A stretch of 64,000 nucleotides of DNA from Crambe crambe (lineage: Eukaryota; Porifera; Demospongiae; Poecilosclerida; Crambeidae): positions 496,001-560,000 of the forward strand of contig OZ004592.1 in assembly GCA_963924555.1 (NCBI GenBank). Direction: 5' to 3'. Positions within the stretch are counted from its first letter, which is position 1. Every line of letters begins with the position of its first letter. Both the position numbers and the translations under genes were made by a program. Below, piece after piece: positions 6,910 to 36,371 of the stretch. Below the pieces are notes generated by a model, which was not told where the DNA came from, made no database searches, and saw only the letters and a list, made by a program, of their open reading frames with translations.

Positions 6910-9900
6910 GAAACCTGAAAAACGAGTACAAGACAAAGAGAGTGACTGTGACCTCTCAACGATAGAGGGTCGGAGACAACGAGCCGAAAAGAGGAAAAGA
7001 AGTGAGGAGTCCACCATTCAATCCTCCTCCCCCTCCAGCTCACTCCATTCCACTCCACCAAAGAAGGCACGTCGTTACTTTTTCGATTCTGATTCCACTG
7101 AAACGGAATCAGATTATGACGACTTGAATAGATTGCAAGGTGAAGCTCATCACTGTAAGAAAGTTAAACAATTCAAGATCAAAAACATTGAAACAAGTTT
7201 AGCTAGCTCAGAATTGTCACCCAAAACTTCCGAAAATATCCAAGAGGTAATAAAACAGAAGCAGCTATGTAAACTCTCTCCACTGGTCAAGACAGCAGAA
7301 ATGAGTTACACAGAGAAAGAGCTTGGATCAACTCCTCTTTCCACTTTTCCCTCTGAAGAACCTCTCTCCACTTTAGGAAAGGGTTCAGGTCATGGATCTT
7401 CTCCCCTTGTTTCACCTTGTATAGCAGTATCTGATTCCACTCCAGCCGAGACTCCTCCCCCATCGACAACTATCCAGAAAACTCCATCCACTTCCAGACC
7501 GAAAAGATCAATGATAAGTCCCCCCAAGGACACTGTGGCTGCTCGCACGAGAGCTCACACCAAGTTTGAAAGTGTTAGTCCTACTGTGCTTCTGTCAATA
7601 TTTGTAGTGAATGGAGTTATTTTTCTATTAGGTAACGAGACCTAAAGGGGTCAGGAAGGCAGGGAGAGGGTCAGGGTCCAAGGCTGCCTCCAAGCAGTTG
7701 GTGATAGCATGGGACCACAACGAGTTCAAGTGTCAAGTGGTAGGCTGTACCAAGTCCTTCCGCAAGGAGTCCCTCTTACAGTCACACATCAAGCACTACC
7801 ACACACCAAAGACAAAACATTCCTCCAAAGGGAAGAACTCCTCTACAGGTATGTGCATACATTTTGAACAAAGGGGGTTCTCCAAGGAGTGGAGAGGAAG
7901 GTTAATTAGGTTCGTGGGATGTTAATGGAGGAGGGTGGTGATTGGTGGGTGTGCTCATTTACAATTCCTTTGATGTGGTTGATGAATGTCATTTACAATT
8001 CCTTTGATGTGGTTATAATGGCATGTGTACAGTATTTAGTCTTAATTTGTACTCCTTTTAGGTGTCAGATCCAAAGCCCATACTCCCGAGCCGTCCAAGT
8101 CACCCCAGACCCCCAAACCCTCCCCTGAGGCCAAAACCAGCTCCAGTGAATCCAAGAAAGCACCAGATCAGGATTCAACGTCTTCTCTGGTGAAGACGCC
8201 ACATCTTCCAAAGTCTCTTCCATCACTGAAGAGTCTGGAGGCTTTGGGGGATGAGTTAAAGAAACCTGAAATATCTGTGGTAAAACTCATAGAAACTCCT
8301 ACCAAGAAACACAAAACAACTGTTTTTGATGATGAAAAGAGTGCTTTGACTTTAAGCTCAAAACAAAAGAAAGACCAGAAAGGAGATGCAACCAAGAAAC
8401 ATCACCAGCAGGGTTCCAAGATCACAACAACGAGTGGGAAAGTAGCCACGTCACATGATGAGAAAGCCACATCACATGATGGGAAGGCCATGTCACATGA
8501 CACTAAGACAGAGTTACCAAGTAAATGAACACCCATGGTCAGTTATAGTGAAAGGACTTTGATGAACTTGTCATTAGAATCCGATGTGAAGAGTGACCAA
8601 TTGGAAAAGGAGGAGGAGGATGTGCCAGGTCAGTCTGTGGTGCCCTCCACCACTGATGGGCAACCAAGTAATGATGTGGTACACTGCATCTGCGGTAGTG
8701 ATATAGATGAAGGCTTCATGATTCAGGCAGGCCCCTTCCACCTCAGTTACCTCTAGTTACTATGATGTTTTATGGTTGTTTCTTGGTTGTAGTGTGAACA
8801 ATGTTTATGCTGGCAACATGGTGAGTGCATTGGCATAAGAAGTGACCAGCTGCCCAAGAAGTATGTATGCTACATATGCTGCAACCCACCAGGTCAGAGA
8901 ACCAGGCTCAAATGCAAGGTCAGTCAGTCCAGAGATTTCAAACAAAACAAACAAACAAACAAACAAACAAACAAACAAACAAATAAATTAATCATGTGTG
9001 TTCTTACAGTATAGTCATGATTGGTATGGGGAAGGCACTCTTCCAAGTATAAGTGGTGGTCCTCCCTTCCCCCCCTCACTGAACAAAGCTGTGCTACTCT
9101 CACACCAGCTCACTGACAACCTGTACAAAGTCAAGAAGATGATACACAGCTCAGAAGTCAAACTCCAGGCAGCTGCCAGGTGAGAGTCTTGTTTATTTTG
9201 TTTTGTTTTATTTAATTCTAGCTTTTTTCCCCCTCTGGCAGTAATTGTCATCATCCGTATTTGAAGCAGTGGGCCAAAGAGTGTAGCCATTACAGCAAAG
9301 ATGAAATGTTGTCTTACCTGATGACTCAACTTCTTCCAGTCTCCTACAATCCATCCGATGCTGAGGCCCCTGAAGATGCAGACACCCAGCAACAAGCCTA
9401 CAAACCTTCCGATGCTGAGGCCTCTGAAGATGCAGACACCCAGCAACAAGCCTACAAACCTTCCGATGCTGAGGCCTCTGAAGATGCAGACACCCAGCAA
9501 CAAGCCTACAAACCTTCCGATGCTGAGGCCTCTGAAGATGCAGACACCCAGCAACAAGCCTACAAACCTTCCGATGCTGAGGCCTCTGAAGATGCAGACA
9601 CCCAGCAACAAGCCTACAAACCTTCCGATGCTGAGGCCTCTGAAGATGCAGACACCCAGCAACAAGCCTACAAACCTTCCGATCCTGAGGCCTCTGAAGA
9701 TGCAGACACCCAGCAACAAGCCTACAAACCTGAGGCACCTGAGGCCGCAGACACCCAGCAACAAGCCTACAAACTTTCCACCTCTGAAGATGCAGACACC
9801 CAGCAACAAGATGAGCAGTCTGTGATGGAGAGTTCCAGTGTTCCCTTCAATGGAACCAAGATTGAAATTGATTCAGAAACTGGGAGTGGAACCAATGATT

Positions 9901-11130
9901 TAGGTACCAAGACTGAGAGTGGAACTGATGTTCAGGATGGAACCAAGAATGAAGATAGAACAGAGGGTTCAATTGAGCCTGAAGGTGAAACAAGGCTAGA
10001 AGGAATTCCCAAGAAAAGAGAGTTGAGAAGCTCCACTATGATACAGAAGAATGCTGTTTACCAAGTTCCAAAGAGGAGCAAGAAGTCGATAAAAGGTAGT
10101 GATTCTTCTATGACTCCTGGTGAAAATCAAGAGAAAGATGGTGAAAAGTCTCTTTGTGATACTTCATCAACTACCGAAGGTGATCAAAAATCTGAAGCAC
10201 TGTTTGTCAGTGTTGTGTCCAGGGCAGGGTGTGAGCAAGTGGACATCAAGCCACTCAAATTAGCTCCGCTGCCTCCCCTGGGAAAGGAAGAGCTTGATAC
10301 TCTGACTTCCGTCACTTCTGAAGTACTCAAGACATCTTTTCCTCAGGCAGCTGGTACTGATTCGTTTGTACAGCAGTCCGGTACAGGATTGGAATTGGAA
10401 CATCCAATTCCGATTGTAGTTCCTCCTCCTTCCCATGTCACACCTGAAGTAGCTGTGGGTACCAGCACCACTGCTGTTACGCAGTGTGGAGGAGATTTGG
10501 GGATGATGGAGATTATTGACACTAATGAGTTTGGCGTTTCTGAGGTGCCAGTCTTTGCTATGGAAGTAGATGATGATCACCCTAAATCCACTCCCAAGTC
10601 CACACCACTGGGTACCATAGCCATCTCCTCGCCTCAATCTGCCACCATTCCCCCCAACAGTTCTGCTTGTAGTTCACAGTTCACACCAGTTATATCAGCA
10701 TCTAATAACCTTATCAGTGTTGGATCTTCAGCTCCAGTTATCCCCTCACTCTCACCCAAAGCCACTGCTAATATTACTAGTTTATCTTCCACTGGACTGC
10801 ATCAGCTGTCTTCCCACACAGGAGAACTGGAGGCTGTCACTCTGGGGGACTTTGCAGAAGCTTTCATGCGAGGAGACACTATGCACTGGTTCAAGAAGAT
10901 GAAGCTGCTGGATCACATTGAGTCTGTGCAGGATAATGTGCAGGCATGGCTGAACATGATAGAAGAGAAGTTGGAAGGTGAGAGAGAAGGGAGGTTGCTA
11001 AGCTGATGTTACAGATGATATTGCAGGTCTCCCAGAAGAGGGGGACAGTTCTGATGACACTCAGAAGATCTTATCTGAGATCCATACAACGATAAGAAAG
11101 TTGGATGAATGCCAAAGGACTGTTGTATGA
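6120..11130 (+). CDS. PHF20/PHF20L1-like chromatin reader (two Tudor-type domains, C2H2 finger, PHD finger)
   Basis: Homologue of PHF20 and PHF20L1, methyl-lysine readers tied to the NSL histone acetyltransferase complex. Exon 1 encodes an MBT/Tudor module (LQVGTKLEALDKVGKWYAAR, then VHFERWNSRYDEF); the second Tudor follows at about 6633-6835 (PGDRIQAKWIDGRKYYGKVV, DVDLLFDDGVEY). A basic Ser-rich linker precedes a C2H2 finger at about 7705-7800 (FKCQVVGCTKSFRKESLLQS, HIKHYH). The PHD finger is split by an intron: HCICGSDIDEGFMIQ at 8682-8726 joins CEQCLCWQHGECIG from about 8793, then VCYICCNPPGQR and a helical segment with SHQLTDNLYKVKKMIH, the region matching the PHF20 sequence after its PHD. 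The large exon 9240-10980 holds a 54-bp coding repeat and a Ser/Thr-rich tail; the final exon ends with RKLDECQRTVV at 11130. One intron (8521-8577) is 57 nt, and one (from 8727) seems to use a GC donor. Confidence 0.9.
8937..8985 (+). repeat. (AAAC)n microsatellite in a PHF20-like intron
   Basis: About eleven copies of the tetranucleotide AAAC between coding exons. Confidence 0.9.
9353..9810 (+). repeat. Coding minisatellite, 54-bp unit, about 9 copies
   Basis: Tandem repeat inside the large PHF20-like exon. The unit encodes AYKPSDAEASEDADTQQQ; seven units are full length (five identical at protein level) and the last two are shortened to 15 residues. The unit is a multiple of three, so the repeat keeps two other frames open, including a long antisense frame. 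The near identity of copies points to recent expansion. Confidence 0.95.
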
Positions 11131-28657: not shown

Positions 28658-31600
28658 TCATCTAACCATGTCCATGACATTAGCCAAAGCATTTTCAGCC
28701 AATTCCACCACTTCTACCGAGTTTCTGGAGTTCTTGATCTGCAAAACTCTGTCCATCAGTGTGGACTGTCGCAGCTTCTCCTTTGTGCTGGTGCCTGCAA
28801 TCAAGGAAATCCCTACTCAATCACATGATCATGTGATAAGTCATGTGACTATCAGTGGAACCTCCTCTGAATGAAGGATACCCTCTAACACTTGAGTACA
28901 TGTATTCTTATAAAGGACACCTCTCTACAATGGACGAAATGGTTGGTATGTACCACCTTGTCAGTCATTGAAACGTTCCACTAAATTGCTAAATGTTGAG
29001 AGAGGTTAGGCCAACACTGCCCTCAAAATCCACCTCTCCTTTGAAAAATATTTCAAAGATATAAACTGCTCCAACAATGTGTAATCTCTAGGACCCAGCC
29101 TTTAGTCCTTTGTAGAGAGGTTGTTGTCTTTTGGAGATTATTAATTTTTGCATGGAGTCCAAAGGTGCGGGTTTTCCTATTTTGGACTGTCCCCTTCATC
29201 AGAGGTCCACTGTATTCCTACCTCCTTCCGTGCAGAACTGGTCCATGATCCACAGAGCAATGTGCACGAAATTAGTCTCTTCCGAGTTCATGAACTTCAA
29301 AAGAAAGTGCATCACAGAAGGGTCATTTTCCAACAGACACTTGTGATATTTCTCTACACAACGCAACAAAACGATCTCAAATACAAACATGAGAGACACA
29401 TACTGCCTACCGTCCATTGCTAAGTGACCTATGACCCCAGCAGAATTGTATTGGACTTCTGAGTATGGAGAGTCCATCAAATTTATGATTGTCTTGTAAA
29501 ACTGTCCATCATTCAACTGCATGACTTTCGCCCTTACCTCCTCTATTTTGAAAAGAAAAGAAAAGAAAAGAAAAAAAAAAGAAGATGATGCCGATTGAGT
29601 TACTCGTTAAATAGAGTGGAAGAGAACAACTTCTCTATAAAGGATGCAAGCTATGTCCCAAGTGTGTCCATCAGACAGAGGTTCCAGGCAGACTCTATGT
29701 GTTTTCATTACCTTCAGATGCCAAGACAGCCAAGGCAGCACACATTTCTGCAATCACAGAGCCTGGCGTGTTCTCAGCGCTGTTAAGACATTCTCCCAAA
29801 ACCTCCAAGCAACCAGCTGCCACAATAGCCTGGAAGTAAGAGGAGGAAAGGAATAATCTTAATTTAGAAAATTGAGTTTAGATTTCAGTTTGCTGCACTT
29901 TGACCTTCTGTAAACATGTTTACACACCCCAGGATAGAATGGTTAATACTGGATATCACGTGGCCCAACCACTGATGTTTAGAGTACATCACATCCAGAT
30001 AAAATACCCAGCAAATGTGATCACCATTCATTAGGAATGAAACTGCCACTCAATCCAAGTCACATGATTCTTGATTGAACACATGATTGAGGAATCTTAT
30101 TGATATGAGGAGAGTCCATGATCCCTATCTATACAAATGGATCCATTACTTGAAGGTTCCTTCCCACACCAGTTAGATGTAAGACTTATAAAGGAAATCC
30201 TATTATATCAGCTTTGATCTGCTGGTAGTTCATGACCAGAAAGAACACAGTTACATGCAACCATCTGTTCGGTCTCAATTGGACTGGACGAACATTCTAC
30301 AATAGAGACACAGGGAACAGTATAACATGCACACACATACATGAGTTTGGTCCTCGGCAGCTAGATTTCTGAGGGTGCCAGCTGCATGGCATTGGAGGTC
30401 GGGGTTCTCCTGAACTACCATCAGTCTCTTCAAGTCCTCAAGAGCACCACTTTTCACTATGGCAACCTAGAGTAGACGATATACAGTTGTATGCCACAGT
30501 AACCAATAACACTAGTGCACATCCAATAATAAGGGAGTGTATTCACACAACACCAAAAAAAGAAGTTCTTTTATATTCCTCTAAACTTTTACATGGAGGG
30601 CAACAGGCAATACAGAAATTCCTAAGACTGGTTCAGTTGCAACTGAAAATCTTTACTGTGCATGTTAACACTGTACCTCATTGCCATTGTGAATGGAGAG
30701 GTTTCTAAGAGCTGCTATGGCAGCTGTCACTGTTTCTGTGTCTGAGCTCCTGAGCAGGGGAACCAAAGCTGTAAGACCTCCCTCGGCCACTATTTGCTGC
30801 TGGTTGGAGCCTATCAAGTTATTTTAGAGGTCTTAGGGATCAAACCACACCCTCCCTCCACCCACTTACTGTCAGAACCGAGATTCCTGATAGCTAAGCA
30901 CGCTTGGCAACAGACCTAGAAACAGGAGGGAAAGGAGTGAATATTTCACCTCAAGGTTAAAATACAAAACATGCTTTGTCAGACAATTATCACACATGAC
31001 CTCATAGTTGAGATCATTAATTTACACAGCTTTCTATGGGAAAACTGTATTGTGCTATGGAAAAATATAGTTGGTGGACAAAGCTATGTTATGGATACTG
31101 CAACCAAAAACTGCACATTAGGTAAAGGGTAGCTACTGGGTCTATAAAAGCCCCCCCATGTGCAACCTACACTTCATTTCACTACTTGGGGACGCCATTT
31201 CAAGACACAGCTGATCTACTCATCAAAACTTGACCTCTCAGTCACTGAAGACAAAGCAGAAAGATGGATCACAACAACGCTCATATTCCAAGGAAGAAGA
31301 ACTCGACTATGATTCCCAAAATGACGAAGATGTCACTCACTTCTAAGGCAGCCAAGAAAGCAGACCTCAACTCCAGGCCAAAGTTGGCCATAGTGGATCC
31401 AAATGTTAAACAACTCGCGACAAAGCAAGACCCAAGTGCTCCCCCTCCCAAGCCTGCAATTGCAAGGGGCGTCCTCAATAAGCACAGCAAAATCACCACC
31501 ACCCGAGGTAGAGTTGCAGCCAATGCAAAGAACAGGCCACCAGCTACAAAATTACCTGAAAAGAGAGAGAATTCAACCAAACCACAGAGCACTTCCAACA

Positions 31601-32287
31601 CCAGCACCACTACCACCACCTGTCTGAGGATTACGACCAACCTTTACTGCACCAAGTCCAAGAATGGAACCAATACCACCAGGAACAAAGAAACTTGTAC
31701 CACTACAACCAGAGAAGTCTCCAGGAGAGCCAACTCAAAAGCTACCACCACCAGCTTGAACAGACAAGAACATCCAGCTGATGTCATCCCTGCAGATAAA
31801 CACGTCGCACTGAAGTTACAGAGAGGAAAACTGCAGCACACTACCACATCAAGAGAAACTGAATGGAGCTCCCTCCTTCCAGATGTCATCACAGATCTCG
31901 CTGTTCTCGACCTCAGCTGCCTCCCAGATGTGGAGAGCCTGAGCGATCCCGATTTCAAGGACAGAGATGACCCCCAACTTTGCTCAGAGTATGTGAAAGA
32001 GATCTATGAACACCTGCTTTTAACGGAGAAACGAGAAGAGTTCAGAATCAGAGAAGATTTGATGCTGAATCAAACTGAAATTGACGTTCACCACCGGAAA
32101 GTGCTACTTGACTGGTTGGTACAGGTCCACACGAGGTACAATCTTCTTCCAGACACGCTGCACATCTGCTTGGACATCATCGACAGATATCTTCAGGTAT
32201 CTATCCCCCCCCCCCCCCCCCCCCACACACACACTAGTCACACATCATATCTTCCCACTTACCACACTTCGCACTCGTCAGCACACT

Positions 32288-32328
<41 letters not shown>

Positions 32329-34709
32329 TGCAGAAAGAAAATGTGTCTAAGAAGGAACTGCAACTGGTTGGGGTGACAGCCATGTTTGTGGCTTCAAAAT
32401 ACGAAGAGATCTTCCCATCTTCTGTCACTGATTTTGCCTACATCACTGCTGACACTTACACCTCTGAAGACATCATCAAGAAAGAGAGAGACATCCTCTC
32501 CAAACTCAACTACGAACTAGGCAGACCCAACCCGCTGATTTTCCTCCGCAGATACTCCAAATTGATGGGCACCACCACACAGATCCACAATCTCGCCAAG
32601 TACTTCATCGAGGCTTCATATTTGTCAACGGATTGCCGGAAACTCCTCCCATCTCAAACTGCCGTGGGGGCATTGCTGCTGGCAGCAAGGATCCTCTCGA
32701 AACGAAACCAGAGTGAACTCTGGGGGTGTTTCATGGAGCAGTACACTTGGTACTCGGAGAAGAGGGCATCTATCTTCATGAAGGAGGTACTCAGACAGGT
32801 CTGCAGTTATTACCAACTTTGCTGCAGCAATCCTCGCTACATCTCCATCAAAGAGAAGTACTCTAATGGATTCCATCACGTCGCTGCATTACCCAGACTG
32901 CAGAGCAAACTAGAGTCACTGTAGCACCTCATCACTCAATTCAGCACTTGTTCGTGTCTGTGCATTTTATCTTGTTCTACCTCAATTAAAGGAATTTATA
33001 AATAAAAAGGGTGGAATTCAAAAAAAAAAAGGGGGGGCTTTGGTGGGTAAAGCTAATACTCACTCTTTCTCTGTTGGATTTCATAAGTTTGATGAGACTC
33101 TGTAGTACTTGTCCTTGACCAGGTCCCACAATCAACTTCCGATACGACTCTGTAAATAGAGCGAGTGTCAAAAGCAATCAGAGAAAACTCTACCACCTCT
33201 CACCATGGACTGCTAAGTTACTGAGGGCAGCTGCACTGTAAAACTGGACATCCTCATCAGTGGACTCCAGCAATTTGATGAACACGGACACAGCCCCTGT
33301 TTCAACCAGCACATGCCGATTAGCCTCTGAAACAAGTACAGAAGAAGGAAGATTCAACAGCTGCTGTCTGCCTCTCTGTTCCATATAATTATTGATGTAC
33401 CTATATGGGTGAGGTTGAGGAGGGCCCCTGCAGCATTCCGCTGGACTTTAGAGTTGAAGGAGTGACTGAGATTAAGGAGGGGGGGCACTGCTCCTGCCTC
33501 CACTATCTTAACCTTATTGGCCTCTGAGCATTTCAAGTATAATAATACATTATTACACGCACTCCTCGGATATTTTTAGTGAGCTCTGGATTTACCTATA
33601 GTGGCCAGGGTAGTGATGCAACCACATGCATTACACTGCACATCTGAGTTGGCCACACCCAGTAGGACTATGAGTGGGCGGAGAGCACCAGCAGAGACGA
33701 TGGTCATCTTGTTCACCTCTGAAGAACATTAACAATTACAACACCATGACAGACCTCTCTCTCTCTCTCTCTCTCTTCCTTGGTTCACTCACCAGGTCCA
33801 TGCAAGGCAAGGTTGCTTAGAGCATGAGAAGACGCCTTCTGCACTTCCAGGTCAGATATGACTAACAGGTGTATTAACGGCTCTAGGACTGTTTCTGATA
33901 CGGGTTCTGTCACTGGAGGTGGGAATGGAATATGAAAGAGTGAAGTGGAATGGAATAAAACAAAATGAAATGGTAGGTATTAGAATTGACAACTGCAGGT
34001 GGAATGGGAAGTGAAATAGTGTATGTGTTATGTGCGTGGATACGAGTTTGAAATCATGACCAAATAAAGAGTGTCATTGTTTTCCCATTTGGCAGACTAT
34101 CCTTAATGGACGGGTCTGTGGTCATGTAAATGATTATGACAAACACTAACAGTATTGCAAGAAAGAAACTGTCCAGTCTGCTACTAGTACTCAGGAATTA
34201 GCTAGCAAATTGGCTAGTGGAAAGCATTTCTCTGCTAGATGCCTAGCATCTCTGGTTGTACCAAACTCACGTTTCTCACTGAATTCTGAGAAACAGAGGG
34301 CAGCAGATCTCTGGAGGTCGATATTATCAGAGTATGCAAGTGTGCAGAGATTGAGTAGGCTGTCATCGCTTATTGTAGTTTGACCAGATCCTGAAGAAAA
34401 CAAAATTAATAAGATTTATGTTGACTTTCGCTATGAAAAATTAATTATGGCAGATTATTCAATCTTCCTTGCATCGATTGCACTACTGTATGCTGAAGGA
34501 TCTGCTTAGCAACTGATTTACTTTGCACAGTTATCACTCCTGACTAGCTGACTGGCTAGCTCACCTTCTTCCAAATACTTCAGTAAATTACTAACTGCTT
34601 CTCTCTCGTTGTCTCTGAGCAAAGGTTCAGAGGCAGAGTGCACCACTCTACTACGTGATCTCTTCCTCCTCTTATGAACACCTCCACAGCAAGAACATAA
34701 AGCTCCCAT
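28658..34709 (-). CDS. VAC8-type armadillo-repeat protein with N-terminal lipid-anchor motif
   Basis: Fourteen small exons give an unbroken armadillo protein that aligns from end to end with fungal Vac8. The start at 34709 reads MGALCSCCGG: Gly2 fits N-myristoylation and the Cys cluster palmitoylation, as in Vac8. A basic stretch and DNEREAVSNLLKYLEE follow, then SDNIDLQRSAALCFSEFSEK (34350 region), one ARM repeat per exon (KMTIVSAGALRPLIVLL with SDVQCNACGCITTLAT; NKVKIVEAGAVPPLLNL with KVQRNAAGALLNLTH; NRHVLVETGAVSVFIKLL with EDVQFYSAAALSNLAVHG), and after a long intron QACLAIRNLGSDS, IVAEGGLTALVPLLRSSDTE, LQCHAAGTLRNLAAED and SEVQYNSAGVIGHLAMDG. The C-terminal block HFLLKFMNSEETNFVHIALW matches the Vac8 end. 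Stop at 28658. Vac8 is a vacuolar membrane scaffold for inheritance, fusion and autophagy; its role in an animal is unknown to me. The intron at about 30920-33060 hosts cyclin B. Confidence 0.88.
31143..31150 (+). promoter_or_regulatory. TATA box of the nested cyclin B gene
   Basis: TATAAAAG, 113 bp before the cyclin B ATG, inside the VAC8-like intron and on the opposite strand to the host. Confidence 0.6.
31264..32924 (+). CDS. G2/mitotic cyclin B, nested in the VAC8-like gene
   Basis: Activates CDK1 at mitotic entry. Two exons: 31264-32195 and 32335-32924. The long N-terminal region is basic and Thr-rich, with RPKLAIVDPN (RxxL) as a destruction-box candidate near residue 39. The cyclin box starts with YVKEIYEHLLLTEKREEFRI; the B-type signature HHRKVLLDWLVQVHTRYNLL is at about 32090-32150, then TLHICLDIIDRYLQ, and in exon 2 KKELQLVGVTAMFVASKYEE, DFAYITADTYTSEDIIKKER and the C-terminal cyclin fold RPNPLIFLRRYSKL to LQSKLESL. 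The spacing and motifs are of B rather than A type. Only one intron interrupts it, with C20, (AC)n and (TC)n tracts. It lies antisense within the host intron with its own TATA box. Confidence 0.92.
32205..32334 (+). repeat. Cyclin B intron: C20, (AC)n and (TC)n tracts
   Basis: A 20-nt C run (32205-32224), an AC stretch, and about 18 TC dinucleotides (32290-32326) directly before the 3' splice site. Confidence 0.95.
33001..33030 (+). other. Poly(A) signal of cyclin B and an adjacent A11 tract
   Basis: AATAAA at 33001-33006, 77 bp after the cyclin B stop. An 11-nt A run starts about 14 bp later, then a G run. Confidence 0.65.
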
Positions 34710-34857
34710 TATCACAAGTTTAGCTAGTTTTAAAACTGCATTATTATTATCGAATATATCAAACACGTGATAATTCACCTTTGAACTCTTTAGCTTCGGT
34801 GCATGCACGTTGCAGCTAGCTTGCTGATCACTGGGTTCTCTCCATCGAGTTACTTTT
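34710..34857. promoter_or_regulatory. Bidirectional promoter region, VAC8-like / CASC3-like
   Basis: 148 bp between divergent starts. No TATA box. Contains CACGTG near 34766 and GCATGCACGTTGCAGC at 34801. Confidence 0.5.
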
Positions 34858-36371
34858 ATGTCTAGAAGAAGGAGTCGAAGCAGATCTCCGCCGAGGAGAA
34901 GGTAAATATTCATATAGCAGCTACTAATGATGCCTTCCCAATTAAAGCGCACCATGAATTTGCAGGCATGGAGCAGCTGATCGTGATAGGGAGAGAAGAA
35001 GGGACGAATATGTCAGGTCTATACGTAGGTCTCGAGACTCTGATGCCATGGATGAAAGGTCAGTATCCAAAAGGCTTTACCAAAAGTCGCAAATGGCTTA
35101 CTTGACAAGCTTTAACATCTCCTGCAGAATGGAGGAGAACTCAAAGGAGAGGCAGCGTAGGTTCCATGAAAAATCTCCAGTCAGGTCAAATGGTGTGTCC
35201 AAAGAGAAAAGTGGAGAAGGAGATGGTGTGAAGGATGAGGAGGAAGGGAAGAGGAGGAGGAAGAGGCAGCGGACACCAGTGGAGAAGGAGGGGGAAGATA
35301 ACAGGACTGACAGGTTTAAGAATGAGAGGATACAGCAGCCTGTTGAACAGTCTAGACAGCAGAGGAGTGATGTCCCTCCATCGACCAATCAAGGAGAAGG
35401 CAGCAATACAGGTACGGAAGGGTCAGGTGTGCAAGACTAGGTGGGTTCTTGCTGATCAATTTCTGTTCTCATGACTTCTGACAGACAACCATGAAATTGA
35501 AAAAAAATTTTGTAGAGAAGGACAGAGTAAGGGACTTACAGCAGAGGGAGAACTGGAGAGGGCGGGACAGGAGGGGGAGAGGAGGACCACGAATGGGACG
35601 GGGAAGGAGGTGGCAACCGGACCAAGAGGGGGAGTGGGAGGGGTCTCCAGAAATGGAAGAGAACCAAAACTCGAGGCTGATGGATTCTCTGATAAATCCA
35701 CAAGAAGTGCCAAGAAAGGGCTACTTCTTTGAGGTGTGCAATGAATTGGACACATCTCTCCTTTCTTGTTTACTTTCTTTTAAAAGTGTAGCATGATGAT
35801 CGAGAACGTCAATCTTCTGACTTCACAAGACAGTGGCGTCAAAGGAGGTTCAGCGAGTCCCGACGTCCCCCTGATCGGACTTGGAGGGATACTGATCGGA
35901 CTTGGAGGGATAGAGCAGATTGGGGTGAGCGAAGGAGGGAGAGGAGACACACCACAGACGAGAGGCATGACAGAGAGTGGAGAGAGAGGGCACAGGAGAG
36001 AAGCAGGGATGGGAGAACACAGCGTGGTGATAGGTGCATATAGCAGCTAGTACAAATTTTCATGGGGATTGGGTTTATGGATTTATTAATACTGAAGGTG
36101 GGAGAGGAGGGGAGAGAGAGAGTCCCGGCCAAGGAGTCCGGCAAGATGGAGGCATGATCTCTTCGAGGATGAGGAAGCAGCCATGAAGCAGGAAAAGGAG
36201 GAGGAGGAGGAAGAAGTAAAAGATGAACAGACAAGGTAATGTTGATTTCGGAGTAATGCAGTTAAAAATATTGAGCACTTACTGTTGATCAGGTCTGGTG
36301 GGATTAATGACAGATGGACACATGACAAGTACGAGTCTCTTACCATGGAAACCATGGAGACTGAAACATAA
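34858..36371 (+). CDS. CASC3/Barentsz (MLN51)-like protein with Btz/SELOR motifs and Arg/Ser-rich regions
   Basis: Seven small exons with matching phases. It starts MSRRRSRSRSPPRRR, then HGAADRDRERRRDEYVRS, then a Glu/Lys/Arg-rich region (VKDEEEGKRRRKRQRTPVEK). The exon at 35516, after a TTTTGTAG acceptor, reads an RGG-like box (GRDRRGRGGPRMGRGRRW) and ends NPQEVPRKGYFFE, which joins HDDRERQ in the next exon. PRKGxFFEHDxR is the first half of the Btz/SELOR module that binds eIF4A3. An Arg-rich stretch with a doubled RTWRDTD unit follows, then ARWRHDLFEDEEAAMKQEKE and finally DRWTHDKYESL; both resemble the WxHDKF second half. Stop at 36371. In other animals CASC3 is the cytoplasmic exon junction complex factor. 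Other Btz-domain SR proteins (THRAP3, BCLAF1 relatives) are the alternative. Confidence 0.7.

Follow-up and report, generated by a model that had tools for sequence, protein, structure and literature searches.

A predicted Vac8-family armadillo repeat protein with a putative lipid-anchor signature in the genome of the sponge Crambe crambe

Introduction

Vac8 is usually discussed as a fungal protein, and RefSeq holds many invertebrate proteins named 'vacuolar protein 8-like'. In yeast, Vac8 organizes vacuole inheritance, nucleus-vacuole junctions and the sites at which autophagy starts (PMC6899017); its G2 is myristoylated, C4, C5 and C7 are palmitoylated, and Atg13 is bound by residues of a cationic groove (PMC9143426). 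A catenin-family study of 2011 describes vac8p as present 'in fungi and plants' and places it in a clade separate from that of the catenins (PMC3141441). Animal genes bearing the name appear in several other papers: a coral proteome includes K08332, 'Vacuolar protein 8', with 39 sequence copies in all (PMC3750612), a number that suggests loose assignment; a Nematostella gene is labelled 'Arm-repeat containing 4, yeast vacuolar protein 8' (PMC4300403); and 'vacuolar protein 8-like' is the name given to a chicken locus (PMC5148799).

The gene described here lies in a 64,000 nt stretch of the Crambe crambe assembly (contig OZ004592.1, positions 496,001 to 560,000), hereafter called the window; the whole assembly comprises 143 Mb in 119 contigs. 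The initial annotation of the window knew of no standard animal orthologue of Vac8 and, as a statement about annotation, this was too strong, given the names carried by the coral entries and the chicken locus. The gene family is already known, and the Vac8 name is used loosely in animal annotation. In the parts of the open-licence literature that were searched, no report was found of an animal Vac8 orthologue shown by both sequence and tree.

Results

Gene structure and neighboring features

The Vac8 gene occupies the minus strand of the window, running from a start ATG at 34709 to a stop at 28658, and a hand-built model of 14 exons gives a complete product of 554 aa (Table 1). All 13 introns are of the GT-AG type, and their phases leave 554 codons and the final stop in one uninterrupted frame; the remaining two frames of the spliced CDS contain 38 and 36 stops. 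Exons 2 to 6 are each 120 or 123 bases long, encode a single armadillo (ARM) repeat and are flanked on both sides by phase-1 introns. Intron 12, at 57 bases, is open in frame, and could therefore be retained to give a longer isoform. The peptides quoted in the initial annotation were all recovered on the minus strand of 28658-34709.

The start codon at MGALCSCC is a prediction based on its context, which is good (A at -3, G at +4), and on its likeness to the start of yeast Vac8, which lies beyond the residues in the PDB chain. Upstream of this codon the frame is still open, without a stop, and contains two further ATGs, at -204 and -246.

Table 1. Exons of the Vac8 gene and other features mentioned in the text. 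Positions are those of the window unless a contig is given.
Feature	Position	Strand	Description
Exon 1	34565..34709	-	MGALCSCC start (predicted N-myristoyl G2, S-acyl C5/C7/C8), basic stretch, DNEREAV helix
Exon 2	34271..34390	-	First ARM repeat, LQRSAALCFSEFSEK
Exon 3	33793..33912	-	ARM repeat
Exon 4	33596..33718	-	ARM repeat
Exon 5	33401..33523	-	ARM repeat, VQRNAAGALLNLTH
Exon 6	33204..33326	-	ARM repeat
Exon 7	33064..33149	-	ARM repeat, first part
Exon 8	30870..30915	-	ARM repeat, second part; R290 aligned to yeast R276
Exon 9	30677..30810	-	ARM repeat; R331 aligned to yeast R317
Exon 10	30341..30466	-	ARM repeat; R373 aligned to yeast R359
Exon 11	29712..29829	-	ARM repeat
Exon 12	29411..29542	-	ARM repeat; sole unit missing its collinear Vac8 place when placed alone
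Exon 13	29222..29353	-	C-terminal block NFVHIALW; preceded by the 57-base in-frame open intron
Exon 14	28658..28794	-	C-terminus and stop
Cyclin B gene	31264-32924	+	In intron 7, between exons 7 and 8
Arginine/serine-rich reading frame	34958-35440	+	Close to the Vac8 gene start
Tandem-repeat reading frame	9222-11006	+	Nine ADTQQQ units
ANKAR-like locus (L023)	C6:8097080-8098024		Ankyrin-like and ARM repeats (by eye)

A cyclin B gene is found between exons 7 and 8, on the strand opposite to the Vac8 gene. It is complete, with two exons encoding 507 aa, and its best solved match is cyclin-B1 (201 bits). A retro-derived origin is possible, as it has just one intron; elsewhere in the genome there are six cyclin C-domain matches, which span no more than portions of the domain, as though introns interrupted it. 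On the other side of the Vac8 gene start, across the region 34710-34990, an arginine/serine-rich reading frame lies close enough that a shared divergent promoter may be involved. Elsewhere in the window, one reading frame carries a tandem repeat in which an exact 18-residue unit, YKPSDAEASEDADTQQQA, occurs in five of the nine copies.

Similarity to yeast Vac8

When solved structures were searched with the 554 aa protein, the best matches were three yeast Vac8 sequences (324 to 341 bits), headed by 5xjg (E=8.9e-101, 341 bits), and the alignment forms one stretch, with residues 27-507 of the window protein lying on residues 7-484 of the chain. Among the best 60 of the 163 matches, designed ARM proteins scored 157 bits or less, and beta-catenin (88 bits) led the natural proteins other than Vac8, with ARMC4 at 86 bits and importin alpha (4tnm) at 77 bits. 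In a direct comparison with yeast Vac8, 207 of 480 residues are identical (43%; 332 bits with composition adjustment off), from the DNEREAV segment through the C-terminal HIALW block, so that both the conserved alpha-1 segment and the C-terminal block are present in the window protein. In a Pfam scan all matches were to Arm or to further repeat models of a general kind; Pfam does not distinguish between ARM families.

The order of the repeats was examined by dividing the protein into 11 units, each about the size of one repeat and free to find its best place on Vac8. Ten of the 11 reached the collinear place, at offsets of -26 to -30, the exception being unit 422-465; with the HIALW block also aligned, the claim that the repeats follow the order of those in yeast Vac8 is upheld. 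Nine of ten steps were in order for Vac8, against three or four of ten for four ARM proteins of the same genome (three of them joined from exon pieces). The Smith-Waterman score with Vac8 was 858, well beyond what chance would give (200 shuffles of Vac8 reached no more than 68), and six rivals from the same genome scored 81 to 188. These six rows are incomplete, covering 184 to 549 aa as exon pieces assembled by eye or sections of long ORFs, and their scores are somewhat depressed as a result. Judged from these alignments, the protein is a genuine Vac8-family member in an animal, and the initial proposal that this animal genome encodes a full-length protein of the Vac8 type is borne out by the complete 14-exon model, the 341-bit match and the collinear repeats.

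Anchor signature and groove arginines

Many myristoylation signals follow the pattern MGxxxS/T, and the MGALCSCC sequence, which had been put forward as an anchor and is indeed present in exon 1, fits a predicted N-terminal myristoylation signal with neighboring cysteines. Further along the protein, R290, R331 and R373 are identical to the three aligned arginines of the yeast groove, R276, R317 and R359. RN motifs are common in ARM repeats, and for this reason the three arginines provide modest evidence.

Other ARM loci in the genome

A genome search with the window protein, which scores best candidates only, gave 15 matches, 12 of them in the Vac8 gene and the rest weak (24-35% identity, at most 31 bits) and located on contigs C20 and C6. 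One strong Vac8 locus was found in the assembly. The 22 Arm-domain matches fall by position into 11 loci, the Vac8 gene and ten others. By search, L031 is beta-catenin and L014 is delta-catenin, both separate from the Vac8 gene. Named by eye, L009-L012 are presumably importin alpha, L013 SPAG6, and L026 and L032 APC. L030 is an ARM gene without a family name, one exon of which has a weak Vac8 match (25.8 bits) that ranks below designed proteins and HEAT-repeat proteins. Protein searches added three further loci, classed by eye as ANKAR-like (L023), SARM1-like (L025) and UNC45-like (L029). The ANKAR-like locus is one open frame of 1370 aa, and the Vac8 gene is many-exon.

With yeast Vac8 as the tblastn query, L014 (38.5 bits) was the one locus among the six of L009-L014 to reach E<=0.01, and the best local match among the ORFs of L023, L025, L026 and L029 was 47.4 bits (default statistics), compared to 332 bits for the window protein (composition adjustment off). 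An exon-blind search of the genome ranked the ANKAR-like ORF on C6 first (40.5 bits), with the best single window exon at 31.1 bits and window exons placed second, fifth and sixth of seven. We attribute that ranking to the shortness of the window exons, as the assembled protein scores 332 bits; at that level the window protein is the reciprocal best match in the genome, the compared rival loci reaching at most 47.4 bits, although the exon-blind search places the ANKAR-like ORF above its single exons.

Phylogenetic analysis

Two small ARM trees, of eight and six rows, were both saturated: the terminal branches leading to rivals measured 3.55 to 10 changes per column, and no branch was starred. 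By path length, Vac8 was the row nearest to the window protein in these saturated trees (2.11 and 2.18; next row 8.68 and 10.3), and the two shared one branch in 34% and 5% of 200 bootstrap trees (eight and six rows, respectively), so the pair was not recovered. In the saturated six-row tree, Vac8 joins importin alpha with weak support. Constraining the window protein to pair with Vac8 gave a p-AU of 0.20, and constraining it to pair with beta-catenin gave 0.27, neither being rejected under the same saturation. Since the rival branches are saturated and no branch is starred, the trees were given no weight either way, and the case for Vac8 identity rests on score and collinearity.

Origin of the sequence

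Fourteen Wnt matches were listed in the genome, all 14 above the cut-off, and Hairy-orange and B-box/NHL genes occur in the window itself (10 of its 28 long ORFs were scanned; two were without a family). These predicted genes, together with the beta-catenin and delta-catenin matches, show the genome to be that of an animal. A contaminating fungus was considered as the source, and was rejected on the Wnt matches, the catenin genes and the size of the contig, which exceeds 6.3 Mb and makes such contamination unlikely.

Discussion

We consider it probable that the gene is the animal's Vac8 orthologue and that its product is a lipid-anchored scaffold that docks partners on the endolysosomal membrane, this being the most likely role; the lysosomal location, the lipids, the membrane and the partners are inferred. 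The anchor would consist of a myristoyl group on G2 and S-acyl groups on C5, C7 and C8, and the rigid ARM superhelix would then be held on the cytosolic face of the endolysosomal membrane. Its positively charged inner groove may grip extended peptides of disordered partners, by which the scaffold could dock other organelles and complexes, such as the ER, the autophagy initiation complex and motor adaptors, to that membrane.

A member of the Vac8 lineage by descent could also act at the plasma membrane or at other secretory membranes rather than at lysosomes. The anchor signature alone names no membrane, and no Vac8 partner was identified in the genome; a precedent is the Vac8 homologue TgARO, which tethers rhoptries through palmitoylation (PMC3567180). 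A genome search with the Pfam ATG13 profile was silent, but equally so in its controls, and is uninformative. We regard action at such other membranes as rather unlikely, because the superhelix is strongly conserved throughout, as are both termini, which suggests that the partners are conserved as well. Acquisition of the gene by horizontal transfer, from a fungus or another eukaryote into the animal lineage, appears very improbable in view of its 13 introns and its five uniform, single-repeat exons with phase-1 flanks, its position within a contig of more than 6.3 Mb, the animal-type Hairy-orange and B-box/NHL genes in the same window, and the cyclin B gene lodged in one of its introns.

The common fold and the shared motif in the repeats, along with saturated trees that failed to recover the Vac8 pair, leave room for the protein being a diverged member of some other animal ARM family (catenin, importin alpha, ARMC3/4, SPAG6 or ANKAR), but this is strongly disfavoured and we give it almost no credence. 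Among the best 60 of 163 solved-structure matches, the beta-catenin and plakoglobin ARM domains scored 88 and 87 bits, Vac8 341 bits, and membership of beta-catenin/plakoglobin was rejected; ARMC4 likewise falls far below Vac8, the Smith-Waterman comparison (with its partial rival rows) separates Vac8 widely from the six own-genome rivals, and beta-catenin and delta-catenin exist as genes of their own. By these scores the protein stands far nearer to Vac8 than it does to any of beta-catenin, importin alpha, ARMC4 and the compared ARM proteins of the same genome.

If the gene is a Vac8 orthologue, early animals may have retained an ancestral opisthokont (or older) Vac8, lipid anchor and client groove included, in which case lysosome tethering would predate fungi and the most-studied vertebrates would have lost or replaced Vac8; we put this forward tentatively, as somewhat short of probable. 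Part of the Vac8 machinery may then be older than fungi, and a well-preserved animal copy would allow one to ask, in an animal cell, which roles of Vac8 are ancient, and when the studied vertebrates lost the protein, if it was lost at all.

Comparison with known ARM proteins places the window protein as follows. Beta-catenin, which is not known to carry a lipid anchor, likewise has an ARM superhelix that binds extended peptides, and differs in its score (88 against 341 bits) and in being encoded by a separate gene (L031). ARMC4 (ODAD2), an outer dynein arm-docking protein of more than 1000 aa, has ARM repeats in common with it (86 bits), but the best stretch spans only residues 183-456 of the window protein. 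With Saccharomyces cerevisiae Vac8 (PDB 5xjg, 6kbm, 6kbn and 7ycj) it shares the glycine-2 start, three near cysteines, the DNEREAV helix and the HIALW block. It differs from the yeast protein in having a basic RRKRSRSR stretch after the anchor and 13 introns in its gene, and in the placement of the cysteines (5, 7 and 8, compared to 4, 5 and 7 in yeast, PMC9143426); its tail is unaligned past residue 507, where yeast Vac8 has a disordered loop at 518-566 (PMC9143426). Apicomplexan ARO (TgARO) is described as a lipid-anchored ARM protein and a Vac8 homologue that tethers rhoptries (PMC3567180); rhoptries are parasite organelles, and the likeness to the window protein is by description only.
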